Of a stretch of DNA of 64,000 bases, positions 46,394 through 51,133 are shown one piece after another. The notes beneath the pieces are model-generated. The model was not told the origin of the DNA and did not search any database. It saw only the letters and a list, made by a program, of their open reading frames with translations. This DNA comes from Hyalangium gracile. Its GTDB lineage: Bacteria > Myxococcota > Myxococcia > Myxococcales > Myxococcaceae. The position numbers and the translations under genes were made by a program. Positions within the stretch are counted from its first letter, which is position 1; each line of letters opens with the position of its first letter. Location: the NCBI RefSeq assembly GCF_020103725.1, contig NZ_JAHXBG010000022.1, positions 1 to 64,000 on the forward strand, given 5' to 3'.

Positions 46394-46423
46394 TTGACGC
46401 TCTGCGCCCGTGGGGCCTACCGT
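46394..46423 (+). promoter_or_regulatory. Candidate promoter of the chemoreceptor gene
   Basis: TTGACG (46394-46399), an 18-base spacer and TACCGT (46418-46423), 37 bases before the receptor's ATG. The -35 box is strong, the -10 box weak. Confidence 0.38.
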
Positions 46424-46460
46424 CGCATCCGTTTCGCTCGAGGTACCGGGAGAAGAAGGC

Positions 46461-48020
46461 ATGTGGGGTCGGCTCAGTCTTCGGTGGCAGGTCGCGCTGG
46501 CGGTGCTGGTGCCCTCCCTCGTCATTTCCGCCCTCAGCAGCTTCTACTTCCCGAAGCAGCAGGGGGAGATCGGGCTGAACCGGTTGAGGGAGCGCGCCAA
46601 GGCCGTGGGGCTGCTCGCCCAGGAGCAGACGGCGTCCATCCTCGAGGGGCCCGAGGCCGAGCGCCAGGAGCGCTTCAGGCACCTGTTCGCCCTGGTGGAC
46701 AAGGGCGGCAACGTGGTGAGCCAGGCGGTGCTCGAGCCCAACGGCAGCCCGCTCATCCAGCACGGCGCCGCCCTGCCGTCGGGGCTGAGCTCGAGCCGGG
46801 CCTCCGAGGGGTGCGCGGACGCGCTCATCAAGGACAAGGACGAGGACAAGGACGTCCTCGTGGTGCGCTGCGCGCTGGCCAATGGGCGCAGCTACGTGAT
46901 GGGCCTGAACTCCTCCGTCGTGGGGCAAGACGTCCAAGCCTTCATGGCGCCGGGGGCGCTCGTCTTCGCGGGCGCGGCGCTGGTGGGCCTGGTGCTGGCC
47001 TTCTTCATCGGCCGGGCCATCACCGAGCCCGTGTCGCGGATGACGCGAGCGGCGCAGGACGTGGCCAAGGGGGACGTGTCCCGCAGCGAGCTGGACGTCA
47101 CCCAGGCGGCCGGCGAGGTGAAGATGATGGCGCAGAGCTTCAGCGAGATGCTGGGCACGCTGCGCGGCACGGTGGCGGAGCTGGTGTCGCGCACCGAGCA
47201 GCTCTCCAGCGCCTCGCGTGGGCTGACGGGGGCCTCCGCGGACCAGGAGCACGTCATCAGCCAGCAGGCGGCGTACGCGCAGCAGATCGCCGCCACCTTC
47301 GAGGAGCTGAGCCGCACCGCCGAGCAGATCTCCAGCTCCACCGAGGTGGTGGAGTCCTCCGCCCGCCGCACGCACGAGGCGGTGGCCGAGGCGATGGCCG
47401 TGGTGGCGCAGGTGGTGGCCGGCATCAACGACATCCGCATCGAGTCCAAGGGCGTGGCGGACGCCATCGTCGGGCTGAACCAGGACCTGCAGCAGGTGTC
47501 GAAGATCGCCCAGGTCATCAACCAGGTGGCGGAGCGCTCGGACCTGCTGGCGCTCAACGCGGCGCTCGAGGGCACCAAGGCGGGCGAGGTGGGGCGGGGC
47601 TTCTCGCTGGTGGCCGCGGAGATGCGCAAGCTGGCCGAGAACGTGTCGGGCTCGGCGCGGGACATCGCCCGCATCGTCGAGAAGGTGCAGGACTCGGGCG
47701 AGGAGGCCGCCACCAAGGCGCGCGTGGGCATGGCCACCTCGGATCGCGGCGTGGAGGTGGCCGAGCAGGCCTCGTCCGTGTTCGAGCGCATCGTCGAGCT
47801 GGCGCGCGGCACCAGCGAGGCGGCGCGGCAGATCACCATCGCCACGCGCCAGCAGCGCCAGTCCAGCGAGCAGGCCGTGCAGGGCGCGCGCAACGTGGCC
47901 GAGCTGGTGAAGCAGGGCGTGGACGCCACCGGCCGCACCACGCGCATCGCCCAGGATCTGCAGGCGGTGGCCGAGGGGCTCACCGCCGTCACCAGCCGCT
48001 TCAAGGTGGCGCGCGACTGA
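46461..48020 (+). CDS. Methyl-accepting chemotaxis protein
   Basis: 519 residues from the ATG at 46461, preceded by GGGAGAAGAAGG. First helix about 12-32 (VALAVLVPSLVISALSSFYF), a small sensor region of about 120 residues, and second helix about 155-180 (GALVFAGAALVGLVLAFFIG). A HAMP domain follows (GRAITEPVSRMTRAAQDVAK) and then a long coiled-coil signalling domain. The tip reads ERSDLLALNAALEGTKAGEV and GRGFSLVAAEMRKLAENV, a variant of the usual QTNLLALNAAIEAARAGE, so the CheA/CheW contact surface differs. It converges on the KaiC-like operon 11 bases away. Confidence 0.93.
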   Translation: MWGRLSLRWQVALAVLVPSLVISALSSFYFPKQQGEIGLNRLRERAKAVGLLAQEQTASILEGPEAERQERFRHLFALVDKGGNVVSQAVLEPNGSPLIQHGAALPSGLSSSRASEGCADALIKDKDEDKDVLVVRCALANGRSYVMGLNSSVVGQDVQAFMAPGALVFAGAALVGLVLAFFIGRAITEPVSRMTRAAQDVAKGDVSRSELDVTQAAGEVKMMAQSFSEMLGTLRGTVAELVSRTEQLSSASRGLTGASADQEHVISQQAAYAQQIAATFEELSRTAEQISSSTEVVESSARRTHEAVAEAMAVVAQVVAGINDIRIESKGVADAIVGLNQDLQQVSKIAQVINQVAERSDLLALNAALEGTKAGEVGRGFSLVAAEMRKLAENVSGSARDIARIVEKVQDSGEEAATKARVGMATSDRGVEVAEQASSVFERIVELARGTSEAARQITIATRQQRQSSEQAVQGARNVAELVKQGVDATGRTTRIAQDLQAVAEGLTAVTSRFKVARD

Positions 48021-48031
48021 GCGCCCCTGGC

Positions 48032-48409
48032 CTACGCGGACTCCTGATCCGGATCCTTGGGGGCCAGCGTGTGCACGTGGGAGAGCAGCTCCTTGAGGGA
48101 GAAGGGCTTCTTGAGGAAGCCCGCCCACGAGTAGTCCCTGGCCTTCACCGTGGGGGCGATGGCGCTCATGATGAGGATGGGGAGCTTCTCGAACTCGCTC
48201 TTCTGGCGGATGGCCTTGATCGTCTCGTAGCCGTTCATCACCGGCATCATGATGTCCACGATGGCCAGGTCCGGCCGGGTCTCCATGAGGCACTTGAGCG
48301 CCTCGCGGCCGTTGCCGCAGGTGAGGACCTTGTAGCGCTCCTCCTCGAGGATGGCCTTCACCGCCTCCACGATGTCCAGCTCGTCGTCGACGATGAGGAT
48401 GGTCTTCAT
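48032..48409 (-). CDS. Single-domain response regulator (receiver only)
   Basis: 125 residues. A complete CheY-like domain: acidic pair in TILIVDDELD, phosphoacceptor in LAIVDIMMPVMNG, switch Ser in ILIMSAIAP and Lys in GFLKKPFS. GGAGGAAG precedes the ATG, which overlaps the KaiC-like stop by four bases, so it is translated with that gene. It is the last member of the kinase / KaiC-like / receiver operon and a natural phosphate acceptor for the upstream kinase. Confidence 0.93.
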   Translation of the reverse strand: MKTILIVDDELDIVEAVKAILEEERYKVLTCGNGREALKCLMETRPDLAIVDIMMPVMNGYETIKAIRQKSEFEKLPILIMSAIAPTVKARDYSWAGFLKKPFSLKELLSHVHTLAPKDPDQESA

Positions 48410-49986
48410 GACTTCCTCCGCCGCAGCAGGCCCCGCCGCTTGGACTTCTTCTTCGCCCCGTCCGAACCCATGGGCGGCGCGACATCCTCCGCGCGGGCGC
48501 CCTCGCGCAGCCGGGCGTGGCCGGTGAGGATGGCCTCGGCGCTCTCGAACGTGTCGGCGACGTTGATGCCCTCGTCGGTGATGGCGAACTCGCGGATGCC
48601 GCTGTCGTACTGGCTCTCGCGCATCTTCATGATGGAGATGAGCCGGTACAGCTGCGAGCGCAGCTCCACGTAGCGCATGAGGATGATGTTCTCCACGTAC
48701 GCCGCGGCCTCCGGCAGCGGGGCGTCCACCCCGGAGCTGAGCAGGGGCGTCTCCTCGGAGTAGATGGTGGTGGAGTCCAGCATGCGCAGTTGGTGCGAGA
48801 GGGCGGAGAAGAAGCGGCCGATCCGGTCCGGGTACACGGCGGCGGAGCGGAAGCCGGACACCCCGTCGATGAAGAGCCGCAGCCGCTTCACGTTCCGCTC
48901 CTGGATGCGCTCCAGCAGCCGCTCGGCGAGCGAGTCCATGTTGTGCTCCAGCGGGGGCTGCCACTGGATCTCGATGAGGCCCTTGTCCACGTACTTCTTG
49001 AGGTCCTTCATCCCCACGCCGGCGGCCTTCTCCAGCAGCCGGGGAGGCGTCTCGTAGAAGCCGAAGTAGACGCCGGGCTGTCCCTCGCGGGCGCCCTGGA
49101 GGAGGAAGTGGAGCCCCAGCAGCGTCTTGCCGGTGCCGGGAGCGCCCAGCAGCATGGTGGTGGAGCCGGACAGCAGCCCGCCATGGAGCGACTCGTCCAG
49201 GCGGGGGATGCCGAAGGACATCCGGATGCGATCCTCGCGGCCCTTCTCCTCCGGGTTGGCGAACTGCACCTCCGTGCGCGGGTGGATGACGATGCCCCTC
49301 TCGGAGATCTCCACCTCGTGGCGGCCCAGCAGCGAGTCACTGCCGCGGAACTTGAGCGCGACGAGCTCTCGCACCGCCCGCGGTCCGGAGAGCCAGAGCG
49401 ACAGCTCGAAGACGCCGTCCACGGCGGTGTTCTCCGGGTGGAGCTCTCCCTCGTGGTGGGGGGACAAGAGCAGGGTGGTGCACCCGAGCAGGCCCACGAA
49501 CGTCTGGAGATCCTGGAGGAAGCGCTTGAACGTCAGGTCCGAGCGGGCGAACTCCTTGGCCGCGTCCATGCCGTCGATGATGAGCAGGGAGGCCTGGTGC
49601 TGGAGGGCGGTGCGCCGCACCATGTCCAGCAGGCCCTTGAGGCCCTCCTTCTCCAGCTCGGCGTAGCCGCTGATGTAGTGGAGCCTCTCGGGGATGACGC
49701 TCGCGTCGAAGAACGTCATCTCCTGGAGGTTGGCGAGCATGCGCGCGTGAGACTCGGACAGGAGCGTCACGTAGAGGGCACGGCCACCGTTCTTGACGTG
49801 GTTGAAGGCGATCTGGTTGGCCAGCACCGTCTTTCCGGAGCCGGGCGGGCCCAGCACCGAGTACGAGGCCCCCTTCAGCAGGCCGCCCTTGGTGATGAAG
49901 TCCAGCCGCGGGACGCCGGTGATCAGGCGCTCGTGGCCCGTCTTCCGGTCCTTCTCTCCTTGTCCAGCGCCTTGTCCTGTCGACAC
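48406..49986 (-). CDS. KaiC-like double RecA-fold ATPase
   Basis: 526 residues from a GTG at 49986 (GGGAG upstream). Two KaiC domains: Walker A GPPGSGKT (about residue 45) with LLIIDGMDAA, and Walker A GAPGTGKT (about 285) with LFIDGVSGF. The C-terminal run YVELRSQLYRLISIMKMRES and IREFAITDEGI is the KaiC CII signature. At the positions of the cyanobacterial autophosphorylation sites Ser431/Thr432 an ungapped reading gives Ala-Ala (PEAAAYVENIILM). The tail is basic. It is flanked in the operon by a kinase and a receiver; clock function is not implied. Confidence 0.9.
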   Translation of the reverse strand: MSTGQGAGQGEKDRKTGHERLITGVPRLDFITKGGLLKGASYSVLGPPGSGKTVLANQIAFNHVKNGGRALYVTLLSESHARMLANLQEMTFFDASVIPERLHYISGYAELEKEGLKGLLDMVRRTALQHQASLLIIDGMDAAKEFARSDLTFKRFLQDLQTFVGLLGCTTLLLSPHHEGELHPENTAVDGVFELSLWLSGPRAVRELVALKFRGSDSLLGRHEVEISERGIVIHPRTEVQFANPEEKGREDRIRMSFGIPRLDESLHGGLLSGSTTMLLGAPGTGKTLLGLHFLLQGAREGQPGVYFGFYETPPRLLEKAAGVGMKDLKKYVDKGLIEIQWQPPLEHNMDSLAERLLERIQERNVKRLRLFIDGVSGFRSAAVYPDRIGRFFSALSHQLRMLDSTTIYSEETPLLSSGVDAPLPEAAAYVENIILMRYVELRSQLYRLISIMKMRESQYDSGIREFAITDEGINVADTFESAEAILTGHARLREGARAEDVAPPMGSDGAKKKSKRRGLLRRRKS

Positions 49987-50002
49987 CGCACGTTCTCCCT
50001 TC

Positions 50003-51133
50003 TCAATACCGCTCGGTCCGGCGCCGGGGCAGGAGCACCTGGAAGGTGGCCCCCTGGCCGGGCTGGCTGGTGACCGAGATCGTCCCTCCGTGCGCCGTGA
50101 CGATCTCCTTGGTGATGTAGAGGCCCAGCCCCAGGCTCTGGGACTGCTGGGTGCTCGTGGCGCGCTCGAAGCGGCCGAAGATGCGGGACTGATCCTCCGG
50201 GGCGATGCCGATGCCCTCGTCGCGGACCTGGAGCATGGCCCACTCGGGGCGCTCCTCCACGCTGATGTGCACCGGCCGGCCGGCGCCATACTTGATGGCG
50301 TTGGTGACCAGGTTGGTGACCACCTGCTCCAGGCGCAGGCGGTCTCCGAAGAGGACGACGGGCTCGTGAGGCAGCTCGAACTGGAGCTTGACGCCCACGG
50401 CGCGGGCCTGGGCCTCCAGGCGCAGGGCCATCTCGCCGACGACCTCCACGAGATCCACGGCGCTCACCTCCAGGCGAAGCCGGTGGCTGGTGACGCGCGA
50501 GACGTCCAGCAGGGCGTCGAGCAGCTGCTGCAGCCGTTCGATCTGACGGACGGCGGGCGAGAGGCTCTTCTCGACGGAGGACTTGGGGATGGTGTCGGTG
50601 GAGCTGCGGAGGGCCAGGTAGAGGGCGCGCTCGAGGTTGAGGCGCAGGGCGGTGAGGGGCGTCTTCAGCTCGTGGGCGGCGACGGAGAGGAACTCGTCCC
50701 GGGCGCGGATGGCGCTCTGGGCGCGGCCTTGCAGGCGCAGGAGCGCCTCGATGTTGGCGAGCAGCTCCTCCTCGTCCATGGGAGTCGTCCAGTAGGCGTC
50801 GGCGCCATGGGCGAGGCCCCGGATGCGGTCCTCGTGCTGGACGGAGACGGCCGAGAGGTGGGCGATGAGGAGATCCCGGGTGTCTTCGTTCTGGCGCAGG
50901 CGGCGGCACACCTCGTAGCCGTCCAGGTCCGGCAGGTGGACGTCGAGCAGGACGAGATCCGGCTGGCCCGCGGCGATGGTGAGCGCCTGCCGTCCGTTGG
51001 CGGCCTCCAGCACCTGGTAGCCCGCCATGCGCAGCATGTGGGAGACCATGTAGAGGGTCGCCGGGTGGTCGTTGACGTTGAGGATGGTGGCCTTCGGAGG
51101 TGGCCGTTCACCCGTATGTCCAGGCGCGTTCAC
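50003..51133 (-). CDS. Hybrid receiver-histidine kinase
   Basis: 376 residues, cytoplasmic. An N-terminal receiver (about 15-135) has the phosphoacceptor in LVLLDVHLPDLDG, but the conserved Lys is Thr (YWTTPMDEEEL) and the acidic pair is Asn-Asp, so its chemistry may be altered. The kinase core follows directly: H-box EFLSVAAHELKTPLTAL, N-box NLVTNAIKYG, G1 DEGIGIAPEDQSRIFGRFER and G2 GLGLGLYITKEIV. The GTG start is preceded by AGGAAG. It is first gene of the operon, with the KaiC-like gene 16 bases downstream. Confidence 0.92.
   Translation of the reverse strand: MNAPGHTGERPPPKATILNVNDHPATLYMVSHMLRMAGYQVLEAANGRQALTIAAGQPDLVLLDVHLPDLDGYEVCRRLRQNEDTRDLLIAHLSAVSVQHEDRIRGLAHGADAYWTTPMDEEELLANIEALLRLQGRAQSAIRARDEFLSVAAHELKTPLTALRLNLERALYLALRSSTDTIPKSSVEKSLSPAVRQIERLQQLLDALLDVSRVTSHRLRLEVSAVDLVEVVGEMALRLEAQARAVGVKLQFELPHEPVVLFGDRLRLEQVVTNLVTNAIKYGAGRPVHISVEERPEWAMLQVRDEGIGIAPEDQSRIFGRFERATSTQQSQSLGLGLYITKEIVTAHGGTISVTSQPGQGATFQVLLPRRRTERY

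Follow-up and report, generated by a model that had tools for sequence, protein, structure and literature searches.

Three adjacent genes of Hyalangium gracile, lying in a 64,000-nucleotide stretch (the window) of a genome of 11.7 Mb, encode a histidine kinase, a KaiC-like ATPase and a receiver-only protein. There is about an even chance that they form a two-component pathway, running from the kinase to the receiver, with a KaiC-type double ring as its output partner. This reading is based on gene order, residues, predicted fold, co-occurrence and paired inheritance, from which we infer that the kinase hands its phosphoryl group to the receiver and that the receiver binds the ring, as well as the direction of control and a downstream target. 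The initial annotation had proposed a non-clock signalling ATPase tied to phosphotransfer, and both parts of the proposal are supported. The KaiC-like protein has lost the phosphosites, E318 and the B-loop of clock KaiC, the genome has no KaiA and keeps its only KaiB beside another, clock-type KaiC, and a receiver gene adjoins the KaiC gene in nearly all related loci and is co-inherited with it.

Organization of the locus

The three genes lie on the minus strand in the order kinase (376 aa, 50003..51133), KaiC-like ATPase (526 aa with a GTG start, 48406..49986) and receiver (125 aa, 48032..48409). Sixteen bases (49987-50002) separate the first two genes, and the last two share a 4-base ATGA overlap (48406-48409), confirming the tight coupling of the initial annotation in both coordinates and strands. 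Pfam describes the products as REC-HisKA-HATPase_c, tandem KaiC and a lone REC, respectively. A purine-rich stretch in the last codons of the KaiC-like gene may serve as the ribosome-binding site of the receiver gene. A scan for promoters and terminators gave nothing clearly above shuffled sequences.

Residues and predicted fold of the KaiC-like protein

Two tandem domains matched PF06745 with a score of 211.7 bits against a cut-off of 26.6, which places the protein in the KaiC ATPase superfamily. The two Walker A motifs (GPPGSGKT and GAPGTGKT) and the C-terminal K-x-R signature of CII are where the initial annotation had seen them. An AlphaFold2 model built from 28 sequences (mean pLDDT 83.4, pTM 0.79) predicts a double RecA-like KaiC fold, and over residues 14-492 the best-matching KaiC structures give Z of 36-38; comparison with 2gbl gave Z 36.4 and an rmsd of 3.2 over 466 residues.

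The phosphosites were assigned by sequence alignment to S. elongatus-type KaiC (PDB 9ofh), in which Glu-Glu at 431/432 marks both sites; the alignment was anchored by the conserved RYVE...KMR motifs, and the structural comparison supplied the ranges and Z values. Positions 431/432 correspond to Ala428-Ala429 (48700..48705, minus strand; codons 48703-48705 and 48700-48702, respectively), as the initial annotation had read them, with no Ser or Thr at either site. Thr426 of KaiC is likewise replaced. The same alignment shows that one glutamate is lost from each catalytic pair. In CI, E77 is replaced by Ser77 and E78 is kept (49753..49758, minus strand), and in CII, E318 is replaced by Tyr311 and E319 is kept as Glu312 (49051..49056, minus strand). 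In KaiC, E318 is the base that activates Thr432 and Ser431, an E318A protein shows no phosphoryl transfer, and the catalytic glutamate pairs take part in ATP turnover (PMC2777353). The B-loop, at which KaiB docks, is deleted. Judged from these residues, the entire kinase chemistry is gone, acceptor and E318 alike; what is retained suggests ATP binding, and hydrolysis is uncertain.

The protein ends in a Lys/Arg-rich, histone-H1-like tail (about residues 495-526, 48409..48500, minus strand), recognized by its charge and predicted to be disordered (pLDDT < 50). The tail is rich in Lys, Arg, Ala and Pro in most myxobacterial members of the receiver-linked group, with a net charge of about +10 over the last 25 residues; outside the myxobacteria it is mostly close to neutral. 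Its basic character may hint at nucleic acid or another polyanion as the downstream target.

The kinase and the free receiver

The kinase carries His154 in HisKA, followed by HATPase_c, and its His, N (NLVTNAIKYG), G1 (DEGIGIA) and G2 (GLGLGLYI) boxes can be read in the sequence, so that it is a histidine kinase of the HisKA type. Its N-terminal receiver (residues 17-128, 50750..51085, minus strand) is degenerate. The initial annotation had noticed Thr in place of the conserved Lys, which is Thr117 (codon 50783-50785), and the first residue of the acidic pair is also lost, being Asn21 (codon 51071-51073). Asp64 and Ser94 are retained. All 14 orthologues have the Asn, and in all 14 the Lys is replaced by T, R or L. 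With neither the first acidic residue nor the Lys, the domain fits the published definition of a pseudo-receiver, and the same paper assigns these two positions to a single covariation network of pseudo-receivers (PMC12632262).

The free receiver, by comparison with the pseudo-receiver of the kinase, retains the complete set of five active-site residues (D8, D9, D52, S82 and K101), as does that of every orthologue of the trio. It has no output domain and is thus a canonical receiver-only response regulator.

Conservation and paired inheritance

The trio of kinase, KaiC and receiver genes is kept in 14 genomes of the same and nearby genera, including the window genome, with KaiC identities of 63-89%. 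In distant myxobacteria the kinase has another N-terminus or is absent, and the KaiC and receiver genes stay. Scanning a species genome collection with the KaiC alignment gave 80 related loci from Myxococcota, Pseudomonadota, Chloroflexota and further groups (Corallococcus, Pyxidicoccus, Archangium, Sorangium, Ramlibacter, Pseudomonas, Steroidobacter, Azospirillum, Dictyobacter and others). The genes do co-occur across genomes: the receiver gene lies directly downstream of KaiC in 78 of the 80 loci and a kinase gene directly upstream in 47, against a background of other receiver or kinase matches in the flanks of about 3% per gene-sized kilobase. The arrangement is therefore not due to chance. 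Kinase input domains vary from locus to locus, being a pseudo-receiver, PAS or none recognised. Receivers could be delimited at 77 loci and are all single-domain proteins (median 121 aa, none above 160 aa); the 4-base overlap with KaiC is found in 27 of these 77, as well as in most of the closer relatives compared.

Across 110 pairs, distances between KaiC proteins and between their receivers correlate with r = 0.89, where permutation gave at most 0.07; the value is not corrected for kinship and is inflated by shared ancestry alone. Better evidence of paired inheritance comes from the paralogues of the window genome. For each of its four KaiC-receiver pairs, the nearest relatives of both members come from one and the same locus. 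KaiC and receiver are thus inherited as pairs.

Several loci and genomes have unusual features. Locus L070, in a metagenome-assembled genome labelled Bdellovibrionales, has a tandem KaiC-REC-KaiC-REC arrangement with two genes of each kind. Loci L072 and L090 (BNCN01000010 and BNCN01000012) are myxobacterial KaiC loci, and the title of their record, Comamonas sp. KCTC 72670, seems wrong. In genomes G013, G017, G033, G034, G041, G048, G053 and G054, KaiC-like matches fall in open frames of about 750-900 aa. Two of these genomes, G017 and G041, have a single frame matched twice in succession by overlapping parts of the query, as if it held three KaiC domains.

Residue pattern of the KaiC family

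Of 116 aligned relatives, 115 have lost E77 and 115 have lost E318. All 116 retain E78, and the position of E319 holds Glu or, in some CII domains, Asp. The Walker A and Walker B motifs and the K-x-R fingers hardly vary at all, and the B-loop is deleted in those receiver-linked members that were inspected. Positions 431/432 are far more variable (SS in 30, SM in 14, AN in 12, AA in 11, SA in 11, and others), and Ser is still present at position 431 in 63 relatives, some of which may be phosphorylated. The altered phosphosites to which the initial annotation drew attention are therefore real in the window protein, but they do not set its operon apart, since weak phosphosites are common to most of the family.

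Proposed pathway and direction of control

In the proposed pathway, the soluble kinase would autophosphorylate on His154, gated by its own pseudo-receiver, and would pass the phosphoryl group to Asp52 of the free receiver. The phosphorylated receiver would then bind the KaiC-like ring and alter its assembly or the state of its nucleotides. Lacking both the acceptor residues and E318, the ring should be unable to run the KaiC phosphorylation cycle, and a ring with no such cycle of its own would leave the receiver to replace autophosphorylation as the switch of an ATP-binding ring. The receivers delimited at 77 loci have no output domain and would therefore need a protein partner for output, and KaiC is the protein that accompanies them. 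The pathway is also suggested by the constancy of KaiC and receiver across loci that differ in the kinase and in its input domain. KaiC-REC fusions in Methanosarcinaceae fit it as well (PMC5847659). Against it, about 40% of the loci have no adjacent kinase, and Ser431 persists in more than half of the relatives.

The main rival is a reversal of direction, in which KaiC acts on the kinase. The cyanobacterial clock output path runs from KaiC to SasA to RpaA, and by analogy the ring would sense ATP/ADP or another cue and tune the kinase, perhaps through its pseudo-receiver, with the receiver signalling elsewhere. We consider this somewhat unlikely. The frequent placement of a kinase gene directly before KaiC speaks for it, as do the kinases at loci L081, L087, L097 and L129, which have no recognised input domain, so that their input must come from elsewhere. 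The pseudo-receiver of CikA, moreover, inhibits autophosphorylation and binds KaiB (PMC12632262). A target of the ring should, however, be the more constant partner, and the kinase adjoins KaiC in 47 of the 80 loci, compared with 78 for the receiver; the B-loop, which is the docking site of KaiC for KaiB, is also deleted here.

A second alternative, which appears unlikely, takes the ring as a pseudo-ATPase, that is, a non-hydrolysing ATP-binding scaffold that holds the kinase and receiver together or is anchored to nucleic acid through its basic tail. The almost universal loss of the first catalytic glutamate from both halves is in its favour, given the part that these pairs play in ATP turnover by KaiC (PMC2777353), and so is the H1-like tail of most myxobacterial members. 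Against this, the second glutamate (replaced by Asp in part of the CII domains), the Walker A Lys, the Walker B Asp and the K-x-R fingers are almost invariant, which exceeds the needs of a scaffold, and the near-neutral tail of most non-myxobacterial members puts the tail outside the general function of the group.

The kinase-to-receiver-to-ring pathway can tentatively be extended to the family. The window protein may possibly represent a widespread bacterial class of KaiC rings that have lost autokinase chemistry, in the form of E318 and, to a varying extent, the acceptor sites, and handed the switch to a dedicated, co-inherited receiver, acting as direct two-component effectors, with the H1-like tail of the myxobacterial members leading to nucleic acid.

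Relation to known systems

The 2011 Ramlibacter genome paper describes a third context of bacterial kaiC genes (black group), in which kaiC often has a receiver gene after it or a signalling protein such as a histidine kinase nearby, and the phosphosites are poorly conserved (PMC3164672). The window operon resembles this context in all these respects, having an adjacent receiver gene, a histidine kinase nearby and weak phosphosites. The available text of that paper contains no mention of glutamate loss or of a test of mechanism, and the operon adds the pseudo-receiver kinase and the basic tail. A 2024 study of Myxococcus macrosporus reports fifty myxobacterial KaiCs without phosphosites, with the B-loop missing and several copies per genome (PMC11832031). 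These share lineage and the absence of phosphosites and B-loop with the window protein, whereas the study focuses on clocks and phytochromes, and the available text does not mention pairing with a receiver or kinase. The operon is thus a further, well-preserved example of a little-studied kind outlined in 2011, and phosphosite-less myxobacterial KaiCs have been known since 2024. Four features are additions not found in the portions of the literature consulted: the near-universal loss of the first glutamate, how strongly KaiC and receiver are paired, the pseudo-receiver conserved in the kinase, and the H1-like tail of myxobacterial members. Beyond the initial annotation, the present analysis adds the glutamate lost from either half of the KaiC-like protein, the deletion of the B-loop, the basic tail and the local nature of the chemoreceptor linkage.

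Archaeal KaiC-like ATPases are described as signal hubs, among them the KaiC-REC fusions, in PMC5847659. These fusions combine a KaiC-family ATPase with a receiver as the window operon does, but the operon is bacterial, encodes the two as separate proteins and has a dedicated kinase. CikA of cyanobacteria is, like the window kinase, a pseudo-receiver histidine kinase near a KaiC system; the window kinase, by contrast, has its pseudo-receiver at the N-terminus with the Asp retained, and there is no photosensory domain. BcsE, which combines a RecA-like fold with a degenerate receiver (PMC7439463), was considered as a parallel and dropped, its nucleotide motifs being severely diverged.

Non-cyanobacterial relatives of KaiC are common and mostly have no known function, and annotations frequently call them circadian clock proteins. 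The glutamate loss (115/116) together with the receiver adjacency (78/80) provides a simple sequence rule that separates receiver-linked from clock-type KaiC. The rule works even among paralogues of one genome and names a testable partner for KaiC.

The neighbouring chemoreceptor gene

A chemoreceptor gene (HAMP and MCPsignal by Pfam; 46410..48020, plus strand) converges on the receiver gene at a distance of 11 bases, as the initial annotation had noted in suggesting a possible link to motility. That link was not supported, and a motility or chemosensory module of the trio and the chemoreceptor is very unlikely. The convergence and the short distance would suit such a module, and the adjacency is kept in the same genus and in genome G020. 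It is confined to this clade, in which the NuoA, NuoB and PHP hydrolase genes equally keep their local order, and in genomes G028, G049, G045 and G014, as well as in all more distant loci examined, the trio sits elsewhere and this chemoreceptor is not beside it. The linkage is thus a feature of one clade, as opposed to the conserved linkage of a chemosensory operon, and the gene was judged to lie outside the module.

Clock-type KaiC and KaiB in the same genome

Cyanobacterial clock KaiC (KaiC1, TIGR02655) and the window protein have in common two RecA-like domains, the Walker motifs and the K-x-R fingers. The window protein differs in having no E77, E318, T426, S431, T432 or B-loop, so that neither the E77/E78 nor the E318/E319 pair is complete, and its operon contains no KaiA or KaiB. 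A KaiC-type timer, whether clock or hourglass, which the clear homology and predicted fold might recall and for which single-site KaiC variants that keep time in cyanobacteria offer some precedent (cited in PMC11832031), is highly improbable and was rejected on residues and partners: no phosphorylatable residue stands at 431/432, E318 and the B-loop are gone, the genome has no KaiA, its single KaiB, which is fused to a receiver, lies next to a different KaiC, and the TIGR02655 (circ_KaiC) score is 129 bits against a cut-off of 546.

The window genome encodes seven two-domain KaiC paralogues. Six of them have lost the glutamates; the seventh, with EE, EE and Ser-Thr still in place, adjoins the sole KaiB gene of the genome, providing an internal control within the genome. 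This KaiB is part of a 264-aa fusion with an intact receiver domain (L045:5745-6539, plus strand), whose gene overlaps that of the clock-type KaiC (L045:6536-7954, plus strand) by 4 bases; the two genes together lie at about 137744-139953 of contig C1. The clock-type KaiC has retained the B-loop region as well as both pairs of glutamates and Ser-Thr at 431/432, and its CI P-loop reads GKSGAAKS, with Ala for Gly before the Lys. By its domain composition, the fusion would place KaiB under phosphorelay control. Full-length receiver-KaiB fusions recur in genomes G020, G033, G013 and G058.
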